A DNA stretch of 33,461 nt from Pseudomonadota bacterium. Lineage in GTDB: Bacteria; Pseudomonadota; Alphaproteobacteria; Acetobacterales; Acetobacteraceae. Made by a program: the position numbers and the translations under genes. Of the stretch, positions 11,083 through 28,331 are shown in pieces. The stretch covers positions 1-33,461 of the forward strand of contig JAJZBH010000004.1 of NCBI GenBank assembly GCA_021799015.1. Direction: 5' to 3'. The notes under the pieces were generated by a model. That model saw only the letters and a list, made by a program, of their open reading frames with translations, was not told the DNA's origin and searched no databases. Positions within the stretch are counted from its first letter, which is position 1. Every line of letters starts with the position of its first letter.

Positions 11083-11300
11083 GATGCTCCTGTTTCGCCC
11101 CCGATCCGGGGCCTTGCTGGTCTTAGACACAGAATGTTTTCCGTCGGCCTCGGTACGGGCCACGGGATCTATGTAGCGCGTGTACTGGATCGATCAATCT
11201 TCATGTTGCTCTGCAGCGCGGCAGGCAAGCCTCCCTGATGTTCCTGGCCTTGAACCGCATCGTGCTTCCTGCCACCACAATACATGAAGGAGCTCCAACG

Positions 11301-12263
11301 ATGAATAGCGAATCTTCGCCCTCGGTCCTATCGCGCTGGTTGTCAGGCGAGCGTCTCGTACCAATCGCCACGCGAATGGCACACCTTACGCCGCCGGAAA
11401 TTTCGTTTGAATTTTTCCCTCCAAAGACTGAGATTCTGGAGGATCAGTTATGGAGTTGCATTCGTCGCCTCGAGCCGCTTCGCCCACGCTTTGTGTCGGT
11501 GACGTACGGTGCTGGCGGGTCAACGCAAGAACGGACCCATGCAACAGTTCTACGTCTGGTCCGCGAAACCAGCCTGACACCTGCGGCTCATCTCACCTGC
11601 GTTGGAGCAAGTCGCGACGAAGTGGACGCTGTCGCAAGGCGGTACTGGGACGCAGGCGTACGGCATATCGTTGCGTTGCGCGGGGATCCCCCGAGTGGCG
11701 CTTCTTATGTAGCGCATCCGGCCGGTTACAGGTTCGCTGCTGACCTGGTTGCAGGTCTGAAACGAGTTGCCGATTTTGAAATTTCGGTGGCTGCTTACCC
11801 AGAGACACATCCACAGGCAATCAGCCCCGAATTTGATCTCGATAACCTGAAGCGTAAGCTTGATGCGGGTGCTTCCAGCGCCATAAGCCAAGTCTTCTTC
11901 GACACAGGAATTTTTCTTGACTTTCTGGACCGGGCTCTTGCCGCTGGCATCACCGCGCCCATCATCCCGGGGATCATGCCGGTGTCAAACTTCGCACAAG
12001 CAAAGCGGATGAGCGAGATGGGCGGTACACGTGTGCCAGAATGGATGGAAGAAATGTTCGCGGGGCTTGGTAACGACCCGGAAACTCGCCGCATGGTCGC
12101 TGCTGCCATTGCGGCTGAACAGGTTCGCACGCTACAGGCGAACGGCATTGATCAATTTCATTTTTACACGCTAAACCGAGCTGATTTAGTGTTCGCGATT
12201 GCACACATCTTGGGTGTACGAACGCGCCCTGTTGAGCCGTCGACCGGCAGCGACATTTCGTGA
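11301..12263 (+). CDS. metF: 5,10-methylenetetrahydrofolate reductase
   Basis: EISFEFFPPKTEI, SVTYGAGGSTQERT, IVALRGDPPSG, VAAYPETHPQA, ITAPIIPGIMPV. GAAGGAGC-type SD before ATG 11301. The ORF track start is 11238. Confidence 0.97.
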   Translation: MNSESSPSVLSRWLSGERLVPIATRMAHLTPPEISFEFFPPKTEILEDQLWSCIRRLEPLRPRFVSVTYGAGGSTQERTHATVLRLVRETSLTPAAHLTCVGASRDEVDAVARRYWDAGVRHIVALRGDPPSGASYVAHPAGYRFAADLVAGLKRVADFEISVAAYPETHPQAISPEFDLDNLKRKLDAGASSAISQVFFDTGIFLDFLDRALAAGITAPIIPGIMPVSNFAQAKRMSEMGGTRVPEWMEEMFAGLGNDPETRRMVAAAIAAEQVRTLQANGIDQFHFYTLNRADLVFAIAHILGVRTRPVEPSTGSDIS

Positions 12264-14443
12264 GTACCTACCTTAACGGACTGAATCACGCCCAACGGGA
12301 GGCTGTTGAAACGACCGAAGGGCCCGTTCTGGTTCTTGCTGGAGCAGGAACAGGGAAGACCCGTGTGCTTACAACAAGATTTGCTCATATTCTGCTCACG
12401 CGAAGGGCGCTTCCGAACCAAATACTTTCCGTCACGTTTACTAACAAAGCGGCGCGCGAAATGCGGGGGCGTATCGAAGTCCTAATCGGAGGACCTGCTG
12501 ATGGGCTGTGGCTTGGCACCTTTCATTCACTGGCTGCGCGCATGCTCCGCCGCCATGCTGATCGTGTCAATCGAACCGCCCATTTTTCGATCCTTGATCC
12601 GGACGACCAGCTAAGAACACTTAAACAGGTGATGGAAGCGCGCCATTTGGACGTGAAACGCTTCCCGCCCCAAGGTTTGATCGGGACAATTCAGCGCTGG
12701 AAGGATCGCGGATTGATGCCTGATCAGGTGTCCCAGTACGAGGATCTTGACTGGGGCGCCACGTCGGCACGCGATCTCTACGCCGCCTATCAGGACCGCC
12801 TGCGTGCGCTAGATGCCGTCGACTTCGGTGACCTTTTGCTGCTTACGACGGATTTGCTCAAGCGAGACCCAGATGTACTCGCAGCCTATCATCGCGCATT
12901 TCGTTACATTCTTGTTGACGAATATCAAGACACGAACACAATCCAATACTACTGGATGCGTCTTCTAGCTCAGGCGCACAAGAATGTTTGCTGTGTCGGC
13001 GACGATGATCAGAGCATCTACTCGTGGCGCGGTGCAGAGATTGAAAACATCCTTCGCTTTGAAACCGATTTTCCCGGCGCGAAAATCATTCGTCTCGAAC
13101 AAAACTACCGCTCGACTGTGCCGATACTTGCGGCAGCAGCTCATCTTATTTCCCATAACAAGTCCCGCCTCGGCAAAACCCTCCATTCTGGCCATACCGA
13201 GACTGGCGGCGAAAAGGTTGAGATTCTGTCATTTTGGGACTCCGACGAAGAAGCTAGGATGATTGGTGATCGCATTGGAATTTTGCGTGAGCAGGGTGAG
13301 AAATTGGCTGAATGCGCCGTGCTTGTCCGTGCTGGCTTTCAGACCCGTGCTTTTGAAGAGCGATTCATCCAGATCGGCTTGCCTTATCGGCTTATCGGAG
13401 GATTGCGCTTTTACGAGCGTGCGGAGATCAGAGACGCGATCGCATACCTGCGTGTACTTACTCGACCTGCTGATGACCTCGCGTTTGAGCGTATCGTTAA
13501 TGTACCTAAGCGGGGGATTGGTGACACAGCGTTATGCCGCCTTCGCGAACGCGCGAGCTCTGATCGCGTGCCGCTCACTGAGGCGGCGTCGCGTGTCATC
13601 ATGGGTGGAGGCGTGCGTGGCAAGGCGCGTGACTCTCTGCGTGAGTTGCTGGAAAACTTTTGGAATTGGAAGCGAGTTTTGCGGGAGGACGGCCACGTTA
13701 TAGCCTTTTCTACGATCCTCAATGAAAGCGGCTATGCCGCCATGTGGAACGAGAACAAGTCGCCAGATGCTGCTGGCCGCGTGGAAAACCTCAAGGAATT
13801 GGGCCGAGCGCTTGCTGATTTTGAAACGCTTGAAGGTTTTCTCGACCACGTATCGCTTGTTATGGAGAACGATGAGATGGCGGCGGGCGACCGTGTTGCG
13901 CTAATGACACTGCACGCCGCAAAAGGGCTAGAGTTCAGCAACGTCTTTCTCCCAGGCTGGGAGGAAGGCGTATTCCCGAATCAACGGGCGCTCGACGAGG
14001 GGGGCGCAAAGGCCCTTGAGGAAGAGCGTCGCCTTGCTTATGTCGGGATCACGCGTGCTCGGCACCGGCTGATCATATCGCATTGCGCAAACCGCCGCGT
14101 TTACGCCACTTGGCAATCGAGTACCCCTAGCCGTTTTACTGAGGAACTTCCAGGAGAATTTTGTACAAGTGGAGGAACAGCTTTACCTAAGTCTGAAGAA
14201 TCGCTCTTTGTCTCTTCATATTTTGGAGATGCGCGTGTTCATGTCGCGCATAGCATTACGGTTGGACGGCATACGTCTACGTCACTTCGCGATTCCGACG
14301 ACTTATCTCTCGGCTCGCGTGTCTTTCATCAGAAGTTCGGTTACGGGATTGTGCGCGACGTAGATGGTGATCGCGTTACTATTGATTTTGATCAGGCCGG
14401 AGAAAAGCGTGTCCTAAAAAGCTATATCGAACAGAGCAGGTAA
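12260..14443 (+). CDS. uvrD: UvrD/PcrA-type superfamily 1A DNA helicase
   Basis: LNHAQREAVETTEGPVLVLAGAGTGKTRVLTTR (Walker A), ILVDEYQDTNTIQYYWM, GDDDQSIYSWRGAEI, TLHAAKGLEFSNVFLPGWEEG, RRLAYVGITRA; C-terminal FHQKFGYGIVRDVDGDRVTIDFD. GTG start overlaps metF stop (GTGA). Confidence 0.96.
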   Translation: MSTYLNGLNHAQREAVETTEGPVLVLAGAGTGKTRVLTTRFAHILLTRRALPNQILSVTFTNKAAREMRGRIEVLIGGPADGLWLGTFHSLAARMLRRHADRVNRTAHFSILDPDDQLRTLKQVMEARHLDVKRFPPQGLIGTIQRWKDRGLMPDQVSQYEDLDWGATSARDLYAAYQDRLRALDAVDFGDLLLLTTDLLKRDPDVLAAYHRAFRYILVDEYQDTNTIQYYWMRLLAQAHKNVCCVGDDDQSIYSWRGAEIENILRFETDFPGAKIIRLEQNYRSTVPILAAAAHLISHNKSRLGKTLHSGHTETGGEKVEILSFWDSDEEARMIGDRIGILREQGEKLAECAVLVRAGFQTRAFEERFIQIGLPYRLIGGLRFYERAEIRDAIAYLRVLTRPADDLAFERIVNVPKRGIGDTALCRLRERASSDRVPLTEAASRVIMGGGVRGKARDSLRELLENFWNWKRVLREDGHVIAFSTILNESGYAAMWNENKSPDAAGRVENLKELGRALADFETLEGFLDHVSLVMENDEMAAGDRVALMTLHAAKGLEFSNVFLPGWEEGVFPNQRALDEGGAKALEEERRLAYVGITRARHRLIISHCANRRVYATWQSSTPSRFTEELPGEFCTSGGTALPKSEESLFVSSYFGDARVHVAHSITVGRHTSTSLRDSDDLSLGSRVFHQKFGYGIVRDVDGDRVTIDFDQAGEKRVLKSYIEQSR

Positions 14444-14452
14444 CACAGAAAA

Positions 14453-15343
14453 ATGAACTGGCGTATCGGTGAGCTTGAGCGGATTACCGTTGTCGTACCT
14501 GCTGAGGCACTTGAAGCCTTTGAGGCTGCATTCGAGAGTTGTTGCTGTGCAATAAGTTTCTTCTTCGATGAGGTGGCTGGAGTCTGGATTCTTGAAGGCT
14601 TGCGTGAGCCGGGAAGGCAAGACTCCGACCTTTCCGCGGCGTTGGCGCTTGCCGAAGAGATAAGCGGCATTGCGCCGCCGCTTGACCGCAGCACTCTTCC
14701 GGCGGGAGGCTGGCTAGCACGTTCGTTTGCCGGTTTTCCAGAGCAAATCATTGGCAACCATTTTGTGATTCAGGGGAGTCATATTAAATCCAAGCCGTCT
14801 GGTTGTCGCATTGACATCAGGCTGGATGCGGGCCTCGCCTTCGGATCCGGAGAACACGAAACTACACGAGGATGCCTGCTTGCGCTCGAACGTTTGCCGC
14901 ACGGAAAGCAGCGGTGTCGGATCTTGGATTTAGGCACGGGTTCTGGCGTTCTGGCGATCGCTGCTGCCAAGCTGCTACGTCGAAGAGTTTTGGCCAGCGA
15001 CATAGATCAACGTTCCGTGATCGTGGCGAAGCAGAACGCGGCACGTAATAACGTAGCTGCTTTTGTACGCGTTATACGTGGAAATGGCTGGAAGAACAAA
15101 ATTATTCGTCAAAAGGGCCCTTACGATTTAGTTTTTGCGAACATTCTGGCTCGCCCGCTTGCGGCGATGGCACAAGAACTAGCCGTGAATCTTGCTCCGG
15201 GAGGGATTGCCATTTTGTCGGGTCTACTTCGTAGTCAGGAGCGTTTCGTACTCACGGCCCATCGTCGGCATGGCGTTTGGCTCCGCGATCGTATCCATAT
15301 GGGCGCGTGGACCACACTTGTACTCCAGAAGGGCCCGCGGTGA
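14453..15343 (+). CDS. prmA: Ribosomal protein L11 methyltransferase
   Basis: LDAGLAFGSGEHETTRGCLLALE, ILDLGTGSGVLAIAAAKL, VFANILARPLAAMAQELA, LAPGGIAILSGLL: PrmA signature motifs. Confidence 0.95.
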   Translation: MNWRIGELERITVVVPAEALEAFEAAFESCCCAISFFFDEVAGVWILEGLREPGRQDSDLSAALALAEEISGIAPPLDRSTLPAGGWLARSFAGFPEQIIGNHFVIQGSHIKSKPSGCRIDIRLDAGLAFGSGEHETTRGCLLALERLPHGKQRCRILDLGTGSGVLAIAAAKLLRRRVLASDIDQRSVIVAKQNAARNNVAAFVRVIRGNGWKNKIIRQKGPYDLVFANILARPLAAMAQELAVNLAPGGIAILSGLLRSQERFVLTAHRRHGVWLRDRIHMGAWTTLVLQKGPR

Positions 15344-15965
15344 TGTTTGGCGTGCTGATTTTCGTGCTCTGAAACCCTGACTAATTCGGCGTAAGACGGG
15401 AATGGCGCCGCTAACGGCAATGCGTCTGCTTCAAATACAGGTTTCGCAGCGTAGGCTGGGTGTGTTTGCGGATGGTGAGGCCAAGGTTGGTCCATAGATC
15501 GGTAATGAGGAATGGTCGTACCCAATGTGTGTGTTATGCACAACGACGTCAGTGAAACGCAAAGTCGTCTGAGTCGGGCGGGGCTCTTGTGGAGCAGAGA
15601 TTAGCTAACGGCTTTTCGAAATGGAGTCAGCGTACTGGACGCGTTGCCAGACCCGATGTTTATGCCGGAGGCGGGTAAACGTATGGCAGTTTGTCGCGGC
15701 GTGATACGGCGCCTAGGCTTGGTGGGACTGAAACCGTTGGAGCATAACGCCTTGCCTAAAGGCGCCAAAAGCGGGGTTCTGTATTTTGGCGCGCCTGTTT
15801 TGATGTCACGGTTTGGCCACAACTCAAGATAGGCGCGCGACTGCAAACCTTAAAGTGTCGTTACGATAGCGCGTACTGGCCCAACGTCGTAAGATCTTGG
15901 CCAGACTCTCAAAAGGGGTCTTATTCGTTGTAAAGTTATTGATTGGTTTAGTAAGGGATGATGCA

Positions 15966-17747
15966 ATGGAGCCAACCCGCGCCGACGCGATCCGCCGCAT
16001 ACTACGGGAGCGCAATCTTGATGGCTTTATCCAGCCACGGAACGACGAGTTCTTCGGAGAATTCGTTCCACCTTCCGACGAACGTCTGGCATGGCTGACG
16101 GGTTTTACCGGTAGTGCTGGCCTCGCGATCCTTCTGCGCGATCGTGCAGCGGTATTCTCAGATGGGCGGTACATGATACAATTGGCTCAACAGACCGACC
16201 CGTTGATCTGGGAGCGGGTTCGCATTGCGGATATGAGGCCCGAGGAATGGTTGCGCGTCAATGCACCACTGGGTGCCCGCATTGGTTACGATCCTTGGTT
16301 GATGAGCGCTGAGACAATTGACAAGTTTTCTAAAGCCGGAATTGCGCCCGTAGCGATCGCGAACCCGATTGACATGCTTTGGGAAAACCGTCCGAAGTCG
16401 TATCCGGCGCCCGCATGGCCGCATGGGTTAGAATTCTCTGGTGAATCCGCCGGTCACAAGCGCGCACGTATAGGCGCCGCCATTAGCTCCGAGGGAGCAG
16501 ACGCCACCCTGTTGACAGATCCGCATGCTGTCGCTTGGCTTTTCAATTTACGCGGAAGTGACTTGCCATATACGCCGATTCTGCTGGCTACTGCATTGCT
16601 GCGCAATGACGGCTCGGCGGAGCTATACGTCGACCCACTGAAGCTCAACGACGCTGTTCGCTCCCACCTTGGACACGGTGTTACGATTGTGCCGCGCGAG
16701 TCGATGGTTCGCTCGCTTTCGACATTACAGGGGCAGCGTGTTCGCATTGATCCCGCCACTTCTCCTATTCGCTATCTTCAAATCCTCAGTGAGGCTGGGG
16801 CAATTGCTGTTTCTGGTCACGATCCTTGCGTTTTGCCGCGAGCAATAAAAAACGGCGTGGAGCGGAAAGGAGCGCGCAACGCGCACCGACGCGATGCGGT
16901 TGCGATGTGCAAGTTTTTGGCATGGTTCATTGCCGAAGCTCCAACCGGGAAACTGGACGAAACGTCGGCGGCGGCGAAATTGCATGAGTTTCGGTCCGTC
17001 GCACCGGAATTTCGTAGTGATAGTTTCCCGTCAATCTCGGCTGCAGGCGAACATGGAGCTATCGTTCATTATCATGCAAACAACATCACCAATCGGCCAA
17101 TTCGCCGCAATGAAGTTTATCTCATCGACTCCGGAGGGCAATACCCTGACGGCACGACCGATATTACGCGGACGCTTTGGACGGGTCCGGGTGTTCCACC
17201 TTCGGATGTGCGTGACTGTTATACTCGAGTTCTTGGGGGGCATATTGCGTTGGCTCGCGCGCGGTTTCCAGAGGGTACAAGTGGCCCGATGCTTGACGCT
17301 CTCGCTCGCACGATGCTCTGGGACGCTGGCCTCGATTACGATCACGGGACCGGTCACGGTGTTGGTTCGTACCTGTCTGTTCACGAGGGGCCTGTCGCGT
17401 TCCACCGTACCGGAAAGCCGGTTCCACTCGCATCCGGAATGATTCTTTCCGATGAGCCTGGTTACTATCGGGAAAATAAGTATGGCATCCGACTCGAAAA
17501 TCTCCTTCTCGTTCGCGAAGCCGCGCTTTCTGCCGCTAAATCTTTTCTGGAATTTGAAACGTTGACCCTTGTCCCCTTTGACATGCGTTTGGTCGACGTT
17601 TCCCTCCTTGATGCACGCTCACGTATGTGGTTGGACGCATACCATGCTAGAGTTCTTGTTGAAATCGGCCCGTTGTTGGACGACTCGACGCGAAACCTCC
17701 TCACGGGTCTGTCCTGCGATGATTGGATGTCAATCGCTTCGTCGTGA
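15966..17747 (+). CDS. Xaa-Pro aminopeptidase (M24B family)
   Basis: Metal ligands present: YLIDSGGQYPDGTTDITRTLW, GTGHGVGSYLSVHEGP, SDEPGYYRENKYGIRLEN. Likely start MEPTRADAIRR at 15966; ORF track start is 15897. Confidence 0.95.
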   Translation: MEPTRADAIRRILRERNLDGFIQPRNDEFFGEFVPPSDERLAWLTGFTGSAGLAILLRDRAAVFSDGRYMIQLAQQTDPLIWERVRIADMRPEEWLRVNAPLGARIGYDPWLMSAETIDKFSKAGIAPVAIANPIDMLWENRPKSYPAPAWPHGLEFSGESAGHKRARIGAAISSEGADATLLTDPHAVAWLFNLRGSDLPYTPILLATALLRNDGSAELYVDPLKLNDAVRSHLGHGVTIVPRESMVRSLSTLQGQRVRIDPATSPIRYLQILSEAGAIAVSGHDPCVLPRAIKNGVERKGARNAHRRDAVAMCKFLAWFIAEAPTGKLDETSAAAKLHEFRSVAPEFRSDSFPSISAAGEHGAIVHYHANNITNRPIRRNEVYLIDSGGQYPDGTTDITRTLWTGPGVPPSDVRDCYTRVLGGHIALARARFPEGTSGPMLDALARTMLWDAGLDYDHGTGHGVGSYLSVHEGPVAFHRTGKPVPLASGMILSDEPGYYRENKYGIRLENLLLVREAALSAAKSFLEFETLTLVPFDMRLVDVSLLDARSRMWLDAYHARVLVEIGPLLDDSTRNLLTGLSCDDWMSIASS

Positions 17748-17822
17748 TTTGAATCGCTCGGTGAGGCTTGGCCTTATTTTTGGTGTGCCGCCTCACGTTG
17801 CCGTTTTGAAAGGAGGTAGAAC

Positions 17823-18356
17823 GTGCGCCTTTTCGTAGCCCTTGATCTGCCTTGGGAGGTCAAGCGCAGTTTGGCCGCGTTTGCGATCAATCTTGCCAGT
17901 GCACGCTGGGTTCCTCCCCAGAACATGCATCTGACTTTGCGTTTTATTGGTGAAAGCAAAGGAGCGGAAGCAGAGGAAATTGATTACGCTCTATCGCGCA
18001 TTCAGGCGCGCGAATTCTCACTGGTGCTAACCGGAGTCGGGTGGTTTGAAAAAGCCGGGCGTGTAAACACGCTCTGGATCGGGGTGGAGCGTAACGAGTT
18101 GCTGTTTCGTCTCCAGGTAAAGATCGAGACTGCGCTTCGTCGGATTGGTTTGCCGCCCGAGCGGAGAAAATTCATGCCTCACGTTACTCTCGCGCGTATG
18201 GATCACCCTGTTACCCCTCGTTTGGTTGAGTTCGTCCAAGCTCACAACCTGTACCGCTCGCCAGCGATTGTAGCTGAACATATAACCCTGTTTAGCTCTC
18301 ACCTAGGTGGTGAGGTACCTGACTATACGGCTGAGATGGAGTATACTTTAGGATAA
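17823..18356 (+). CDS. thpR: RNA 2',3'-cyclic phosphodiesterase (2'-5' RNA ligase family)
   Basis: MRLFVALDLPWEVKRSL start, two HxTx motifs (HLTLRFIG, HVTLAR); GTG start with GGAGG SD. Confidence 0.92.
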   Translation: MRLFVALDLPWEVKRSLAAFAINLASARWVPPQNMHLTLRFIGESKGAEAEEIDYALSRIQAREFSLVLTGVGWFEKAGRVNTLWIGVERNELLFRLQVKIETALRRIGLPPERRKFMPHVTLARMDHPVTPRLVEFVQAHNLYRSPAIVAEHITLFSSHLGGEVPDYTAEMEYTLG

Positions 18357-18407
18357 GGCTTCAGCGTAGCGTTATATCTAATAGCCGACCCGAGGATCTA
18401 GAAGGCT

Positions 18408-19409
18408 TTATAACATCGGCAGATTCGCCCGTGCGCGCAGTATCTCGAGCAGCACAAGAGTCGTCGTTAGAACGAGTGGTCCGAGCACAAAGCCGGGTGG
18501 TCCAAACAGGACAAGCCCGCCTATGATCGATATGAAAGTCGGGACGGTGTGCAATCGCAAGCGGTTTCCCAGAAGGATCGGTCTTATAACGTTATCGATT
18601 CCGCCCACCACCACGCTACCCCAAACAATCAATATTGAAGCCTTGATCTCATGACCATCCAAAATTAACAAAATGGCTTCAGGGATCCAAACAATGAATG
18701 CGCCAAGCACTGGCACCATGGATAGCAAAGCCATTACCAAGCCCCAGAGAACCGGAGCAGCAAGGCCAAGAACTAGGAACATTAGGCCACCTAGCGCACC
18801 CTGAATTATCGCCACTACAATGGTGCCGTAGATTGTCGCATGGATCGTATCAACGATACGGGCGAACAGGCGGTCGGTTTCGGTCTGATTGAGCGGCAGA
18901 ACGCCGCGGAGGACAGCGCAGGCGGCACCGCGGTCTCGCAAGACGAAGAAAAGGATGTAAAAGGTAAGCACGATCTCCAGCGCTTGCGCTAAAGATCCTC
19001 GTAGGAACGAGGCGCTGACATTGCTGAGCCAAGTCGTTAGACGGCTAATCATAGCGGGTAGATCAATTTGCTCTTGCGCCCAGTATACGAATGCTGGAAG
19101 TCGGATCGATTTCGTGGCTAATTTTTCCTGAATAAAACCAGCGCTAGCAGCGGCCTCGCGGACCAATCGCTCAATCACCAAAACGGCTGGTGTTGCCACG
19201 ATGATTGCAGCAACTAGCACGGTCAGAACCGCAGCAATGCCGGGACTTCTAAAGATCTTCTCAAATCGTACCTGCAAGGGCACAAATAGGACACCGAGAG
19301 CGAGCGCCCATGCGAGCGCGCCCAAAAAAGGAGCGGCAAGCAATACGCAAAGAACTGCACCGACCATCACTGCAGCTGTGAGGGTAAATGTATTGATCCG
19401 CTCATTCAT
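18408..19409 (-). CDS. AI-2E family transporter / permease
   Basis: 333-aa polytopic protein; FYILFFVLRDR, MALLSMVPVLGAFIVWIPEAI, VVVGGIDNVIRPILLGNRLRLHTVPTFISIIGGLVLFGPPGFVLGPLV are typical of the family. Confidence 0.93.
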   Translation of the reverse strand: MNERINTFTLTAAVMVGAVLCVLLAAPFLGALAWALALGVLFVPLQVRFEKIFRSPGIAAVLTVLVAAIIVATPAVLVIERLVREAAASAGFIQEKLATKSIRLPAFVYWAQEQIDLPAMISRLTTWLSNVSASFLRGSLAQALEIVLTFYILFFVLRDRGAACAVLRGVLPLNQTETDRLFARIVDTIHATIYGTIVVAIIQGALGGLMFLVLGLAAPVLWGLVMALLSMVPVLGAFIVWIPEAILLILDGHEIKASILIVWGSVVVGGIDNVIRPILLGNRLRLHTVPTFISIIGGLVLFGPPGFVLGPLVLTTTLVLLEILRARANLPML

Positions 19410-20320
19410 GTTGGAATCGCAGAGCTGAGAGAATGCTCTTCAGTCTTGTGCTCCTGGAGTAGTTTGAGCGCACGATGGCGTCTTGGGCTTCGTCTCCGGC
19501 TGGCACTGAAGGCGCACCAGCCATGTTGGCCATTATATGACCCGAGATGAGAATTGCTAAGGGGATGGTCAAGCTGTTGGCCCCTCAACGGGTTAATGAC
19601 GAACACTTGTGCGGCAGGGTCCCGCTCGGCGTTAATATTTGGCACATTTTGCGCGATTGCCGCGATGCCTGAGAACGCGCCGGTGAAGGTCGCGCGATCG
19701 TGTGTCATTGGTGCGGCGGCCTTGCCCACAACGAAGTCGCGAGTGCCTGAATTGGCAGGTTGCACCGTTATTGGCGCAACGGGAGTCAGGAATAGCGGCA
19801 AAAATCGATGGAGTGCACCCAGAGAGGCGTCACTCTCGGTGAGCCGTCGGTTCCCGAAGAAAAACCCAATGTTGGTAAGAATGCCAATTTCACCAGAGCA
19901 TGTCGGCGCGATTATGAGCGTCGGAAGGTTCTGGCGCTGCAGATGCGTCGACTCATCTGTTGGCACACCTGCAAGCTCTGCGGTTGGGAACTTGCGTAAA
20001 GGGGCAGTTGTAACTTGAACCGCAGCTGGTTTCGGGCCTCGCGCTGCGGCAAATGCATTCAACCTGTAGTTGTGAATTTTAGAAACGCGCGAAATCGGAC
20101 GGTTGGCCCGTTGGGCAAACGACGCAACGAGATCCATTAATCCATGAGCGCCACGTTCGTCAGCGCCCGGAATGTCGCGCATTGCCAGAACAAAGCGATT
20201 AGAGGCCAAATTGGCAAGGGCGTTCATTACGGTAGCGAGTACAAGCGCGACGGTCATTCTGGCGGTGTCCGCGATCCAAAACTCGACGATCATTAATACG
20301 CCGGTCGCCATCAGGAGCAT
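19406..20320 (-). pseudogene. htpX: Decayed HtpX-like M48 membrane protease, still an open 304-aa frame
   Basis: Recognisable HtpX landmarks in order: NAFAAARGPKPAAVQVTTAPLRKFPTAELAGV, TLII..., NIGFFFGNRR, IAAIAQNVPN..AERDPAAQVFVINPLRGQQLDHPLSNSH. HExxH position reads DESTH, and the downstream REYEAD-type Glu ligand reads RDFVVGK. May be a pseudogene or a pseudoenzyme. Confidence 0.8.
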
Positions 20321-21391
20321 TGGCGTACTAGGTAGTCACGAAGAATGTCTAAACAGGAAGTGTCTACGACGCGTTGATTTCCATCAATCTCCAAGACCTT
20401 AAGTTCTCCAACGGGCGTTAACGGCTAGTGGGCACCATGATGATCTGAGAAGCCGGGTGCCAAGCGGCACGATTCGTATGCTAAAAGAGCGCAAGCGGCA
20501 ATTTGGGATACGCGCGACTTGGACCTTTCTTGTGAGGCACGCAGGAAGCTCGAGGCCGAATCGCTGGTAGACACCAAGTTCAGAGTGCATGCGGAGAGAG
20601 TTTTTCGCTGCCCCTCAGGAGCTGGAGCCCGGCTAATGGCGGCTTCGGCAAGCGAGGCCACGTATATGAGATTGTCTGCCAATAAAGGGACGCTTGTTGA
20701 GTGCAACAACGACACATACCTTGTCGCTGTCCTAACACGTTATGGAAGACCGATATTGTACTTCAAGAAACCAGTGCGCTAACGTAAAAGTTAACGCGCG
20801 CAATTATGATATTTGCAATAAACATACGTTATCATCGAGCTGTCCACGGGGAAAGATCTTCACTCGTGCATGCCTATCACAGCGATCACGAGGTAGGACG
20901 GCCCAAGAAATTTTTGCCAAGTTCAGGAGATGGTGTTAAATATAGAAAAAATGTTGCGACGACCTAAGGTCGTGCGTCCCAAAACAAAGCGTGAGGCAAG
21001 AAGGGTCACTTAAGGTACTACGGTGTAATATGCCGCCAATTGAATCACTGGGTGGATATCGAGATTCCTTTAAGTTCAACCACATGATGCCAGCCGAGCC
21101 CGCCGATCCGAGACGGATTAACGAGTACTTTTATGCAGTTCTTGATTCCTTCACGTAAAATTACGCATTTTATCGTTTCCTACGAATCACGCTGACGCCT
21201 GAACAGCGGGTAGAACCAATAGTCCTCCCGCTCCCGGGATCAGGGTCTTGCCTCTGTCATCAGAGCCCCCGGTCGCCGCGCACCAGTTTTGGAGGGCCAG
21301 GAGGTTGACCAAATACACCGGTAGATTTTTTGGCAAGCAAAAATCACGCCAACCCCCTTCTCGAAGTCCACATAGTTGATATACTCAGTGA

Positions 21392-22825
21392 ATGTCGATC
21401 GCGCCTCGCCTTGACCTGCGCCAAAATCAGACTCTGGTCATGACGCCACAATTGCGGCAGGCAATCCAGCTGCTCCAGTTTACCAATTTGGAGGCTACGC
21501 AATTCCTTGATGAGGAAATGGAGCGCAACCCGTTTCTTGAGCTAGGAGACAGTGATGCGGCTGGCTCAGCTCCCACCGGTGTTGACAAACCCGAGGAGCC
21601 GGGTCCGCTTGACCCCGAACCCGGCGCGGCTCTCGATACGGATTTTTCGAATGTATATGACGTTGGAGCCGTTTCCGACCAAGCTGGTGGCGTCAACCTC
21701 TTTGATATGGATGATGAGGACCCGATTGGCAGAATCGCGGGTCGCCCCCTAGGACTCCGTGACTATCTGGAACATCAGGCACGACTCGCTTTTTCAGATC
21801 CTATTGATCGCAAAATTGCTCGAGCTTTGATTGCGGCGTTGGAGCCAACAGGCTGGCTCGCTGAGCCGCCGGAGGCCATTGCCACAGCACTTCAGCTGGG
21901 CATCGGACGAGTTGAGAAAGTGCGGCAGATGATGCGGCATTTCGATCCTACGGGCGTGTTCGCGTGTGATTTGGCTGATTGCCTGTCAGCCCAGCTCGCT
22001 GAGCGCAACAGGCTTGATCCGGCCATGGCCGCTTTGCTCCGGCACCTCGATCTATTAGCCCGCCGCGAATATCGCACACTGATGACCATCTGTGGCGTCG
22101 ACGAGTCGGATCTGCGCGACATGATCGATGAAATTCGTCGGCTGGATCCGAAACCGGGCGCCCGTTTTGAAGCAGAGGAAGTTCGGGTTTTGATCCCTGA
22201 TGTTGTCGTACGCCGGAACCCTGACGGCGAGTACCTAGTGGAACTAAATCCTGAGACCATGCCACGAGTGCTTGTCAGACGAGGATTTCATGCTCGGATG
22301 GTAGTCAAGGCAACACGTGAAACCAAGCAATTTCTGAACGAACGGATGCAGGCAGCAAATTTTTTAATCCGAGCACTGGAAGCAAGAGCGCAGACAATTC
22401 TACGTGTTGCAAGCGAGATCGTTCGATTACAGGAGGGCTTTTTCAGGCACGGAATCGCCTATCTGCGACCCTTGACTTTGCGGGACGTTGCCCAGAGCCT
22501 GGAGCTTCACGAAAGCACGATTAGTCGCGTCACGGCAAATAAATCCATGGCAACACCACGCGGCATTCTCGAGATGCGTTTCTTTTTCACAGCCGCGCTC
22601 GGCGGCGCAGATGGCGAGATTCATAGCGCGTCTTCTGTCCGATATCGAATTGCCGCTCTCGTGGAGCAAGAAAGGCCTGAGGCAATCCTTTCTGACGATG
22701 CTCTTGCGCGAATATTACAAAACGAAGGCATAGACATTGCACGTCGAACTGTGGCCAAATATCGTGAAGCGTTGCGCATACCCGGTTCGGCGCAGCGGCG
22801 GCGGGATAAATCATTGCGTGGTTAA
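21392..22825 (+). CDS. rpoN: RNA polymerase sigma-54 factor
   Basis: MSIAPRLDLRQNQTLVMTPQLRQAIQLLQFTNLEATQFLDEEMERNPFLE; HTH ESTISRVTANKSMATPRGILEMRFFF; RpoN box ARRTVAKYREALRIPGSAQRRR. Confidence 0.98.
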   Translation: MSIAPRLDLRQNQTLVMTPQLRQAIQLLQFTNLEATQFLDEEMERNPFLELGDSDAAGSAPTGVDKPEEPGPLDPEPGAALDTDFSNVYDVGAVSDQAGGVNLFDMDDEDPIGRIAGRPLGLRDYLEHQARLAFSDPIDRKIARALIAALEPTGWLAEPPEAIATALQLGIGRVEKVRQMMRHFDPTGVFACDLADCLSAQLAERNRLDPAMAALLRHLDLLARREYRTLMTICGVDESDLRDMIDEIRRLDPKPGARFEAEEVRVLIPDVVVRRNPDGEYLVELNPETMPRVLVRRGFHARMVVKATRETKQFLNERMQAANFLIRALEARAQTILRVASEIVRLQEGFFRHGIAYLRPLTLRDVAQSLELHESTISRVTANKSMATPRGILEMRFFFTAALGGADGEIHSASSVRYRIAALVEQERPEAILSDDALARILQNEGIDIARRTVAKYREALRIPGSAQRRRDKSLRG

Positions 22826-22873
22826 CCCGTCGATTAGTGAACCGGTAACTCGGCTACGCAAAGGCGATTCGCG

Positions 22874-23494
22874 ATGGAAATTACTGTCTCCGGAAAGCAG
22901 ATTGACCTATCCGATGCTCTTCGCGCCCACGTTGCGCGGCATCTGGACATTATCGCTGGCAAATATTTCGACCATGCGATAGAGGCGCATGTGACGTTTA
23001 GCCGTGCACGAAGCTTTTTTACGTGTGACATTAATGTACACGCAGCGCGCGGCTTGACGTTGCGTGGAGAGGGAGAAGCTGCCGACGCACATTCGGCCTT
23101 CGATGATGCGGCAGAGCATATTGCCAAGCGGTTACGGCGCTACCGGCGGAGAATGAATGAGCATTCGCGCGAAAGTGCGAACCGTACGCGACCAGAAATG
23201 ATACGACAATTCGTGTTACGTGAGGTCTACGAAAACGGCGCAGAGGTCGACCTTGAATCGAACGGAAGCATGGGTGGAACTAATGCATTAAACCAAGAGA
23301 CCGGACCACACGCTGCGGTCGTCGCTGAGATGCAGACCGAAATCCGGCCGCTCACCGTCAGTGAAGCGGTAATGCGGATGGACTTGGCGGATCAGACTTT
23401 ATTGCTATTTCGCAATATCGCGACCGGGGCGCTAAATATTGTTTATCGCCGGCCTGATCAGCATATTGGATGGATCGATACAAGTACGATATAG
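22874..23494 (+). CDS. hpf: Long-form ribosome hibernation promoting factor
   Basis: MEITVSGKQIDLSDALRAHVARHLDIIAGKYFDHAIEAHVTFSRA; C-terminal dimerisation domain LTVSEAVMRMDLADQTLLLFRNIATGALNIVYRRPDQHIGWID; directly follows rpoN. Confidence 0.95.
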   Translation: MEITVSGKQIDLSDALRAHVARHLDIIAGKYFDHAIEAHVTFSRARSFFTCDINVHAARGLTLRGEGEAADAHSAFDDAAEHIAKRLRRYRRRMNEHSRESANRTRPEMIRQFVLREVYENGAEVDLESNGSMGGTNALNQETGPHAAVVAEMQTEIRPLTVSEAVMRMDLADQTLLLFRNIATGALNIVYRRPDQHIGWIDTSTI

Positions 23495-25653
23495 CCCGTC
23501 CCGGGGGCGCCGCTGACTGAAGGTGTCCTAGGGCGTCGCAAAGCTTCGTGGCGGGGGATGGTGCCGCACGGTGTGTCAAACCGGACAAGGGAGGGTGCAC
23601 TCGCTATTGCAACTGGTGGCCAGAGGGTGGGAATGATTGCTTCGCGGTTGCTCGGGCTTTGTCCGATAGCTGTACTTGGATCTGGCATATGTATTATCGG
23701 CGTTACCGAGTAATTTTGTTGACGTGGTGCAGATTTGAGCAGGCAAGGCCACGTTGCGACGGGACCACATTCCGGACCAACATGAACCCTCGCACGGAGA
23801 TCGTGGACCGAACTATGGTTTCACTGCCAATTGAACGTATCAGACGCTTTGGGGGATAGGGAATCACCTCGAACTTGAGCGTGATTAGAGAGTGGCGCAT
23901 GCGCCTCGACGTTGCTTCGATCCAACCAGCGACCCTGCGCATTTGACGTATCTGGACGTCGTAATGCCTGACGCGGATCTCTTTTCGGATATCTCGGAGG
24001 AGTTTTCCTTGATAAATCGAAAGCTGAAAGGGCACATCGGCCACCATTCTAGGCGTTATCTAATCGGTCTTCGGTGGAGTTGCTTGCCTTCGGCATCACG
24101 CAAGGTATTCAATACCTCGTCGACTGTTCACCAGAGAATGAGGTCGAGATGTTGCCTGATCCACTTGTCGCCGACATCGACTACATTGCCAAAACTCCGA
24201 AAGACATCCTCATTTATGATGGTTCTTGCGCTGGTCCTGAGTTGACAGGTCGTGGCTAGGTGCCACTGAAGCTCGAACGGGGGCCGCGCCGCCACATCCA
24301 AATTTACCAAAAAATCACCTCATCCCCCCCCCCATGGGCACGAAGCCTCGAACGGGTTACGGGAGGTTAAGGATGACGGTGGAACATGCTCCCGATAACT
24401 TCTGTACCGACGCGCTCCGGTATTGCCAAACAGTGATTTTCTCCAGGCGGACGTCATATGGTTCAAAAAAGTTTAAGATAGGGATTCTGATGGCCCACGC
24501 GATCGTTGCATCCTCGCGCCATCTGCATGGACATTTCATAAATACCGAGTCGGAGATGCTGACAAGGACAACGTAGGGAGAGCTGCGCTTGGTCAGGCAC
24601 GTATCTGAGAATCGTAGGCTGTATTGCTCTGGCCCGACAATGGTATCGAAGATCCGTATCAAGACAAGTGTACATTCAACTTCTTGATTACGGAAAGGCA
24701 TACAGAGCGGAGTAAGCTATTACGTTTAAAACCCAATCTCCTGAATTTCTGAGAAAACCCTTGAAAATAGTTCCTTCCGCCGAAAATGGCTGGGGTAGGG
24801 ATGAAGAGGGGCGGCGGCAGAGATTCGCACGGCCAGCGTTGGCTACCACGTGGAAAGAACTGATAAAATATAAACAAAATGAGGCGCTGGTTTTCCTCAA
24901 GTTCTGTTTGTTTTGCACAGACAAAATAAAATACGGCAAAAATTAGCGAGTCGCATATATATTGCTGTCGTGAAAACCAGAGGCGTTTTTTTCTTCCTGC
25001 GTGGCCGGCAGCATTTGACATCATCGGCTCCAAATCCATTATGGTACGCTAGGTGATTGGCGGTTGTAGTCATGGTAGCAATTACGACATGGGAGCAAAG
25101 AAAAATGATATGCACAATGCGATGCCAAGCAAAATTTTTGTCGTTAGTCGTGTCGTACAATGTTCTTACTGGTCACCATTTTGCGTCGACTCAAATTTAA
25201 CATTTAGGACGCCGGTTTATCATTGGACTTGTTCAAATCAATTGTATTTTTGGCGTAAAAAGAAACCCTTCCAGTCATTCAATCAGAGCTGTCGGCAGAG
25301 TCCATGCCGGTTTGAAGAAATGATACTTAATAATTCCCGTGCGGCAGTTGAGGATATTGTTCTGAAAAATCCATAGTCCTACCCATAATACGTTATCAAA
25401 GAGTCCGCCGTGGCTGCCTTGAATAGCTTAAGCCCATATTGTTGAGACCTGCCTCTCTCTGCTAGTTGTTATGTAAGCGAACACGCCTTTTCAATGCGTC
25501 GGGAAACGGCTGTGGCCCGGGTATGGGTTGATTTCACGATTGGCCTGTTGGCACCCAATCGCGGTGGCCGATGTACTTCGTATAAGGTTCCGCAGCGCCG
25601 ACGTACAAGGCGGTAACTTTGGAAAATAACGTCGAAACGAAATGGAGTTTCTG

Positions 25654-26739
25654 ATGTCGCAGACTGCATTGCTTCGCCCGGTGGAATTCCGATCGGTAGT
25701 GGCTAAAAATCGAATCGCAGTTTCGCCAATGTGTCAGTACAGCGCAATCGAGGGCCTTGGGCAAGACTGGCACTTACAAAACCTGGGTGCAAAGGCGGCA
25801 GGCGGAGCAGGGATTGTGTTTACCGAAGCAACGCATGTTTCACCGAATGGGAGAATTACTCAGGGCTGTCTTGGTCAGGGGGACGACGCGCAAGAAACGT
25901 TTGCGGCCAGGTTGGTTGCGCTGATTGCTTCTGCTGGTGCGGTGCCAGGGATACAAATTGCACACGCGGGCCGTAAAGCGAGCTCTTTGCGGCCGTGGGA
26001 GGGGGGAGGATTCGTCGCGCCGGAGTCGGAGGGTGGATGGTTGCCCGTGGCTCCTAGCGCAAAAGCCTTTACGCCCGACCGGCCGGTTCCAAATGAACTA
26101 TCCGTGGTGGAAATCGATGAAATCGTAACCGAGTTTGCGAGAACAGCAGGCAGAGCGAGGCGTGCAGGGTATCAGATTCTTGAGATTCACGCTGCGCACG
26201 GGTATTTGCTCCACAGCTTTCTTTCCCCCGTTACAAATTTACGAAGTGATCGTTACGGCGGATCCGCGGCACGGCGGGCGCGCGCATTGATGGACGTAAT
26301 TGATGCCGTACGCGCAGAGTGGCCGTTGGAGTTGCCCTTGTTCGTGCGATTATCCTGTGTCGATTGGGTCGGGGGTGGTCTGACAATAAATGATTCCGTG
26401 CAGCTGGTGACGTGGCTGAAGGCGCGGAACGACGTTGATCTGATCGATTGTTCTTCAGGGGGGATTTTGCCACAGCAAAATGTGCCATCGATACATCCTG
26501 GGTATCAAGTGCCATTTGCTGAGGCGATCAGGCGTGAAACGGGACTAGCAACGGGTGCTGTCGGAATGATCCGTTCAGCGGATCTGGCGGCGGAGGTTAT
26601 TGCTAATGGCCGCGCAGACCTGGTTTTGTTGGGGCGCATCTTGCTAGCGGATCCGGGATGGCCGCGGCGAGCGGCAGCCCAACTTGGCGAGCCCATGCTG
26701 GATTTGCCTCAGTATCAGCGCGCGGCGCCGGCGATCTAG
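25654..26739 (+). CDS. NADH:flavin oxidoreductase / Old Yellow Enzyme family (YqjM-like)
   Basis: NRIAVSPMCQYSA, IQIAHAGRKAS, ILEIHAAHGYLLHSFLSPVTNLRSDRYGGS, LGRILLADPGWP. Start at ATG 25654 with upstream GGAG preferred over 25642. Confidence 0.95.
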   Translation: MSQTALLRPVEFRSVVAKNRIAVSPMCQYSAIEGLGQDWHLQNLGAKAAGGAGIVFTEATHVSPNGRITQGCLGQGDDAQETFAARLVALIASAGAVPGIQIAHAGRKASSLRPWEGGGFVAPESEGGWLPVAPSAKAFTPDRPVPNELSVVEIDEIVTEFARTAGRARRAGYQILEIHAAHGYLLHSFLSPVTNLRSDRYGGSAARRARALMDVIDAVRAEWPLELPLFVRLSCVDWVGGGLTINDSVQLVTWLKARNDVDLIDCSSGGILPQQNVPSIHPGYQVPFAEAIRRETGLATGAVGMIRSADLAAEVIANGRADLVLLGRILLADPGWPRRAAAQLGEPMLDLPQYQRAAPAI

Positions 26740-26748
26740 TTATGCGTT

Positions 26749-26786
26749 AGTGGATATAATTATCCACCTTATTCACGTAATCCACA
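26749..26786 (+). promoter_or_regulatory. Cluster of DnaA-box-like 9-mers upstream of dnaB
   Basis: ttatccacc (26760-26768), ttattcacg (26769-26777), taatccaca (26778-26786), each 8/9 to TTATNCACA, end to end; an inverted GTGGATA arm at 26750-26756 mirrors TATCCAC at 26761-26767. Confidence 0.55.
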
Positions 26787-26834
26787 AGCGTCCCCCCCTG
26801 TCGCGGGACTCATCGCTGGAGTAGCATTACGGTA

Positions 26835-28331
26835 ATGACCAAGTTGGATTCGCCCCTTTTAGGATTGTCGCAGCGTTTACCGCCGTCGAATCTTGAGGCG
26901 GAGCAAGCGCTTTTGGGTGCGCTTCTCGCGAACAATAAAGCATATGAACGGGTTTCGGAATTTTTATTGCCTGAGCATTTCGCCGATTCGATTCATGGGC
27001 GCATTTACGAGGCGATCGCGAGACGGATTGAGGCAGGGCAGCTTGCCGATCCCGTTACGCTCCGAGCTGAGTTTGAGCATTCAGCGGTGCTCGAAGAGGT
27101 CGGCGGAACCGCGTATCTCGGGCAATTGCTGGCGGCAATGGTGGGTATCATCAATGCAGGGGATTATGGGCGGATAATTCATGATGCGTGGATCCGCCGC
27201 AACCTGATCGATCTCGGCGAGACCACTGTAAACCGGGCATTTGGCGCCGATCCCGATATGGATGGAAAAGCTCAAATTGAAGCGGCGGAGCAGGCGCTGT
27301 TCGATCTTGCCACTCGCGGGGGAACGGACGGAAGGGCGATGACTTTCGAACGAGCGTTAGAGCTCGCGATCGAGTCTGCGGAGCAGGCATTCCGTCGAGA
27401 CGGTCATGTCTCGGGACTAACGACAGGACTTCGAGATCTGGACGCGAAGACTGGCGGGATGCATGAGTCCGATTTGCTGATTCTGGCTGGGCGCCCCGGG
27501 ATGGGAAAAACTGCGTTAGCAACGAAAATTGCCTTCGGGGCAGCTCAGGCACTCCTGAACGACGTGAGAAAGACCGATCCGAGCGCAGAGGCGAAGAAGA
27601 CGGTGGTCATTTTTTCTCTAGAAATGAGCGCCGAACAACTAGCAACGCGTTTGCTTGCTGAAGAGGCGCGGGTTGCGTCCGACCGTATTCGAAGAGGTGA
27701 AATCGGAAAGAAGGAGTTTGATAGTTTTGTTGCAGTGTCAAGGAGAATTGCAAGATTGCCGTTGATTATTGATGATACTCCGGCAATTTCGCTTTCGGCG
27801 ATGCGAACGCGATGCCGGCGGTTGAAACGGACTAATGGGTTGGCTTTGGTGGTTGTCGACTACCTGCAATTGATGCGGCCTGCCACGGGTACGAAACCGG
27901 AGAATCGGGTGATCGAGATAAGCCACATTACGCAAGGGTTAAAAGCTCTCGCCAAGGAGCTACAGGTGCCAGTACTAGCATTGTCGCAGCTTTCTCGCGC
28001 GGTTGAGAGCAGAGAGGACAAGCGACCTCAGTTGTCGGACCTGCGCGAGTCGGGAACGATCGAGCAGGATGCGGACATGGTCATGTTTGTTTATCGTGAC
28101 GAGTATTATTTGCAGGGAAGGGAGCCCAAACAGGCAGCTTTTGAAAACGAGGACAAATTTCATTCCGCTAAGGATAAATGGATGGTTGACATGGAAAATG
28201 TTCATAACAAGGCAGAATTGATTTTGGCGAAGCAACGGCATGGTCCGACAGGGAAGATCGACCTGTTCTTCGAAGCAGAGTTAACGAGGTTCGCCGATCT
28301 CGATACTCACCACCTCGATGTTCACCCTTAA
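26835..28331 (+). CDS. dnaB: Replicative DNA helicase
   Basis: PPSNLEAEQALLGALL, LILAGRPGMGKTALATKIA, VVIFSLEMSAEQLATRLLAEEA, LALVVVDYLQLM, LSQLSRAVESREDKRPQLSDLRESGTIEQDADMVMFVYRDEYY. No intein. Confidence 0.98.
   Translation: MTKLDSPLLGLSQRLPPSNLEAEQALLGALLANNKAYERVSEFLLPEHFADSIHGRIYEAIARRIEAGQLADPVTLRAEFEHSAVLEEVGGTAYLGQLLAAMVGIINAGDYGRIIHDAWIRRNLIDLGETTVNRAFGADPDMDGKAQIEAAEQALFDLATRGGTDGRAMTFERALELAIESAEQAFRRDGHVSGLTTGLRDLDAKTGGMHESDLLILAGRPGMGKTALATKIAFGAAQALLNDVRKTDPSAEAKKTVVIFSLEMSAEQLATRLLAEEARVASDRIRRGEIGKKEFDSFVAVSRRIARLPLIIDDTPAISLSAMRTRCRRLKRTNGLALVVVDYLQLMRPATGTKPENRVIEISHITQGLKALAKELQVPVLALSQLSRAVESREDKRPQLSDLRESGTIEQDADMVMFVYRDEYYLQGREPKQAAFENEDKFHSAKDKWMVDMENVHNKAELILAKQRHGPTGKIDLFFEAELTRFADLDTHHLDVHP

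Follow-up and report, generated by a model that had tools for sequence, protein, structure and literature searches.

A decayed htpX gene with a frame apparently kept without its protein, upstream of an AI-2E family transporter gene

The locus and its neighbours

The window, i.e., the whole stretch of 33,461 nt that was analysed, comes from an acid-loving bacterium and is a contig of a 2.43-Mb assembly that is 94% complete. On its minus strand, a long ORF related to the membrane protease HtpX is followed directly by a gene for an AI-2E family transporter, the stop codon of the first overlapping the start codon of the second, and rpoN, which encodes sigma-54, lies divergently on the other side of the ORF (Table 1). 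The same gene is present at the same place in the closest relative, G005 (another Acidiphilium metagenome-assembled genome, hereafter the sister), where its product is 67% identical. Because rpoN is divergent, the promoter of the minus-strand transcript must lie in the non-coding DNA between rpoN and the ORF, unless the AI-2E gene has a promoter of its own.

Table 1. Features of the htpX remnant, its overlap with the AI-2E gene and the adjoining region (positions in the window)
Feature	Position	Strand	Details
AI-2E family transporter gene (PF01594)	18408..19409	minus	protein 94% identical to sister; dN/dS 0.15
ATGA, remnant stop overlapping AI-2E start codon	19406..19409	minus	conserved in sister
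Decayed htpX ORF	19406..20320	minus	304 codons, open; start at 20320, stop ends at 19406
Indel pair near the 3' end of the remnant	19532..19564	minus	+1 at ~19564, -13 at ~19532; net -12, frame restored
Asp at third zinc ligand	19736..19738	minus	codon 195; Glu in active HtpX, Asn in sister
DESTH at the HExxH position	19943..19957	minus	codons 122-126; HESTH in sister
Non-coding stretch between rpoN and remnant	20321..21391		1.07 kb
rpoN (sigma-54)	21392..22825	plus	divergent; protein 95% identical to sister; dN/dS 0.20

In the other genomes of the genus that were examined, htpX and the AI-2E gene are not adjacent; a long distance separates them in G008, and in G004 they are on different contigs. 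A plasmid search matched the AI-2E gene alone, in S. fredii NGR234, without an htpX gene beside it. In a further genome, G083, the AI-2E homologue (L087, 1468-2483) is found in two pieces in different frames and is apparently frameshifted.

Loss of the HtpX signature and the age of the decay

The original prediction described a 304-aa ORF that retains an HtpX scaffold, and both its coordinates and its length were right; it named no strand. The NCBIfam HtpX model (NF002363/PRK01345) aligns with residues 2-255 at E=1.6e-48, so that homology extends over nearly the full length of the ORF, and the landmarks NxFA, ELAGV, and PNINAER survive. The ORF is a remnant of HtpX. However, what marks a working protease of this type (M48, PRK01345) has been lost. 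With 165 bits, the score falls far below the curated cut-off (422), the ORF is not matched by Pfam Peptidase_M48, and identity to the active HtpX proteins of the family is 35-37%. Alignment of the ORF with 38 active-type HtpX proteins shows that the first zinc-binding His of HExxH is replaced by Asp, giving DESTH, and that the Glu of TREYxAD is also Asp, as had been read from the sequence at first sight. The C-terminal THPxxxxR region is gone as well, and the membrane segment that is strongest in active HtpX (around residue 180) has dropped in hydropathy from 2.2-2.35 to 1.0-1.2. When solved structures were searched by sequence, the ORF gave just a chance-level match to the HtpX homologue 3cqb, whereas the intact HtpX copy of G008 matched it at 1e-12. 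The original prediction had named an intact HExxH at another place in the ORF as the finding that would refute inactivation; such a motif was looked for and none was present. Taken together, the sequence comparisons support well the claim that the product is inactive as a protease.

The loss reaches well past the zinc site. Among 95 near-invariant columns, each at least 93% conserved in the 38 active-type proteins, 51 are changed in the window ORF. When the sister is included, 33 columns are retained in both sequences and 36 are lost in both, while 15 are lost in the window only and 11 in the sister only. Since 36 of the 51 losses are common to the two genomes, the decay of htpX began before they split, and the gene was probably already dead in their common ancestor. 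The DESTH variant itself, which the original prediction proposed to look for in related genomes, is not common to the sister, whose orthologue has HESTH but carries Asn at the position of the Glu ligand; this HESTH is likely a leftover. A third orthologue was sought in the named genome collection and the sister alone was recovered, leaving two known sequences of the remnant.

The original prediction proposed a search for an active htpX in the rest of the genome. No M48 domain was detected in the rest of the window's genome (94% complete) or elsewhere in that of the sister (88% complete), although at these levels a copy could have been missed; the window's genome does encode FtsH. Within the genus, intact, active-type HtpX was found in G008 and G004, and most members of the genus and family lack the protein. 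The loss of htpX is thus ordinary in a genus that often lacks HtpX; the unusual side of the remnant is an open frame that lacks a constrained protein.

Neutral drift within an open frame

Comparison of the window with the sister (pair statistics were taken from an aligned sample of ~158 kb of the two genomes) gives no sign that the amino acid sequence has mattered since their split. Substitutions at the three codon positions number 54:56:60 in the remnant, against 14:9:47 in the AI-2E gene and 13:11:44 in rpoN, and the products of both neighbours are far better conserved than the remnant (Table 1). The remnant dN/dS (omega) varies with kappa over the range 0.75-0.96, and its bootstrap intervals are 0.55-1.03 (kappa 1), 0.62-1.19 (kappa 2), and 0.68-1.33 (kappa 3.3). 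Its first 245 codons contain 78 amino acid changes, where 70 +/- 5 are expected under unconstrained mutation, and the replacements are no more conservative than random, while the AI-2E protein is clearly constrained in the same test. The overall divergence of the remnant (0.167) is that of the window's intergenic DNA (0.172) rather than that of its other genes (0.062). No clustering of substitutions was detected along the ORF, and an apparently conserved stretch at ~19618-19689 was not significant in the clustering test; the substitution rate drops at the overlap with the AI-2E gene. The amino acid drift of the remnant has been neutral since the split, with omega intervals that leave room for weak purifying selection. 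The favoured interpretation of these comparisons is that the remnant is a pseudogene whose protein no longer matters, which agrees with one of the two alternatives offered at the outset.

In its neutral codon evolution and its intergenic level of divergence, the remnant resembles the bacterial pseudogenes of reduced genomes. It differs from them in having neither a stop codon nor a net frameshift in either lineage. Given the substitutions that separate the pair, ~4.3 in-frame stops would be expected and none is observed (P ~0.02); with a drifting ancestral branch added, the chance of finding no stop falls to ~0.0005-0.002. Frameshifting indels occur at 2.2/kb in the remnant as against 8.4/kb in the intergenic DNA of the pair and 0 in the other genes, and the two that are present, where ~8 are expected, cancel each other, lying ~32 nt apart near the 3' end. 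Both of these indels appear to have arisen in the window lineage, because the sister still has a readable RVARL that matches active HtpX. When stops and indels were simulated jointly over the first 240 codons, the probability of an open frame came to ~3e-4 with indels at the intergenic rate, to 0.004 with half that rate, and to 0.016 with the indel rate of the ORF itself, values that are rough and pertain to a case chosen for being open. In the ~158-kb pairwise alignment, the remnant is the only ORF of at least 150 codons that has flat codon positions and is open in both genomes; the other four flat ORFs are all interrupted in the sister, and one of these is the opposite strand of the remnant itself.

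The original prediction spoke of a pseudogene caught before its first stop codon. The word pseudogene holds up well, but the simple timing does not, since both lineages have drifted for long and are still open, and so long a drift without a stop or a net frameshift is unlikely by chance. The same holds for its proposal that a plain pseudogene would reveal itself by a dN/dS near 1 together with stops in close relatives: the omega interval does reach 1, but the sister has no stops. What the first reading did not include is the overlap of stop and start codons with a constrained downstream gene, which may be the reason that the frame has stayed open.

Explanations for the open frame

In the favoured model, to which a probability of roughly one half is assigned, the pseudogene has been retained as a transit ORF that serves translational coupling or counters polarity. 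The remnant, as the first cistron, would be co-transcribed with the AI-2E gene that it overlaps. Ribosomes translating the remnant would stop at the TGA and reinitiate at the overlapping ATG, and while in transit they would protect ~0.9 kb of the RNA against Rho-type termination. Missense changes in the remnant would then be neutral, while stops and net frameshifts would cost expression of the transporter and be purged. Bacterial termination-reinitiation typically takes place at overlaps of -4 nt, and the last 15 nt of the upstream gene can suffice for it (PMC10666635). With its conserved ATGA, the pair has the stop/start overlap expected of coupled genes. It also resembles the coupled -4 nt pairs described (PMC10666635) in that its second gene lacks a Shine-Dalgarno match, but differs from them in that its upstream cistron lacks a constrained protein, and coupling in this case is predicted from sequence. 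No Shine-Dalgarno match was found before the AI-2E gene in the window or the sister, or at the first ATGs of the window htpX ORF. However, this absence carries little weight either way, because several ordinary genes of the window also have a weak match or none.

The broader claim, that purifying selection acting on the frame only has made the gene of a dead enzyme serve the gene that it overlaps as a leader ORF, long and independent of sequence, is put forward tentatively, with somewhat less confidence than the retention itself. The proposed likeness to known leader and upstream ORFs, which control the next gene by translation, would be limited to the transit of ribosomes; the remnant is far longer (304 codons) and derives from a decayed enzyme gene. 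Among the papers searched, none was found to describe an HtpX pseudoprotease or frame-only selection on a pseudogene.

The main rival is a plain pseudogene, in which decay has been neutral throughout and it is by chance that neither genome has lost the open frame. This is a serious possibility, if a less probable one than retention as a transit ORF. Every measure of substitution is neutral, as it would predict, and gene loss of this kind has been commonplace in a family that mostly lacks HtpX; furthermore, at the ORF's own indel rate chance openness is not extreme for an ORF picked because it was open. However, this reading must accommodate the missing stops and the missing net frameshifts together, for which the intergenic rate gives the lowest of the simulated probabilities, and the remnant's standing as the single flat and open ORF in 158 kb. 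The decay common to both lineages implies a drifting history that is longer still.

A second possibility, also raised in the original prediction, is that a pseudoprotease has been retained because it does something other than catalysis, for instance binding to the membrane or acting as an adaptor. The surviving landmarks, the frame open in both genomes, and lower omega bounds of 0.55-0.68 give this idea some room. However, the protein-level constraint that it predicts was not found: bias among codon positions is absent, replacements are random-like, and substitutions are unclustered, while the membrane segment has lost hydropathy and more than half of the near-invariant positions are gone. A kept pseudoprotease is therefore regarded as improbable. 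Equally improbable is the proposal that the frame persists, independently of the downstream gene, because the cell would suffer from hydrophobic products that are truncated or frameshifted. Such harm would also yield neutral missense change with nonsense avoided, but loss of expression or deletion would be the simpler selective outcome.

An open frame is usually read as the mark of a functional protein; in this case it has apparently been kept without one. If retention as a transit ORF is correct, the intactness of an ORF would be an unreliable guide to function in overlapping operons, flat codon positions combined with the absence of stops would be a signature that can be searched for genome-wide, and dead genes would have a way to persist and to give rise to long leader ORFs. 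An ORF with a degenerate motif should not be named a pseudoprotease before such a test of constraint.

Some observations count against the transit-ORF model. The remnant is known from two sequences, and its adjacency to the AI-2E gene was seen in these two genomes only. In addition, the 13-nt deletion of the window lineage in the remnant creates a promoter-like sequence, TTAGCA-17-TATAAT (19560-19532, minus strand), ~125 nt before the AI-2E gene, which is present in the window only and not in the sister. Such a putative promoter could free the AI-2E gene from its leader in this lineage.

Several other features of the region were noted. Synteny with the sister breaks at 18397-18401, within a few bases of the 3' end of the AI-2E gene: window positions 11157-18401 match sister contig C3, positions 18397-28029 match contig C65 in reverse, and both contigs continue beyond the break. 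The intergenic gaps of the window were searched for decayed neighbours that could serve as a control, and no gene remnant was recognisable. One of these gaps, the 2.1 kb at 23495-25641 that follow rpoN-hpf, differs from the sister by many indels, evolves at the neutral rate, and contains no recognisable gene. With its several long intergenic gaps and a GC content of 53.8%, which is probably low for the genus, the window has the look of genome reduction.
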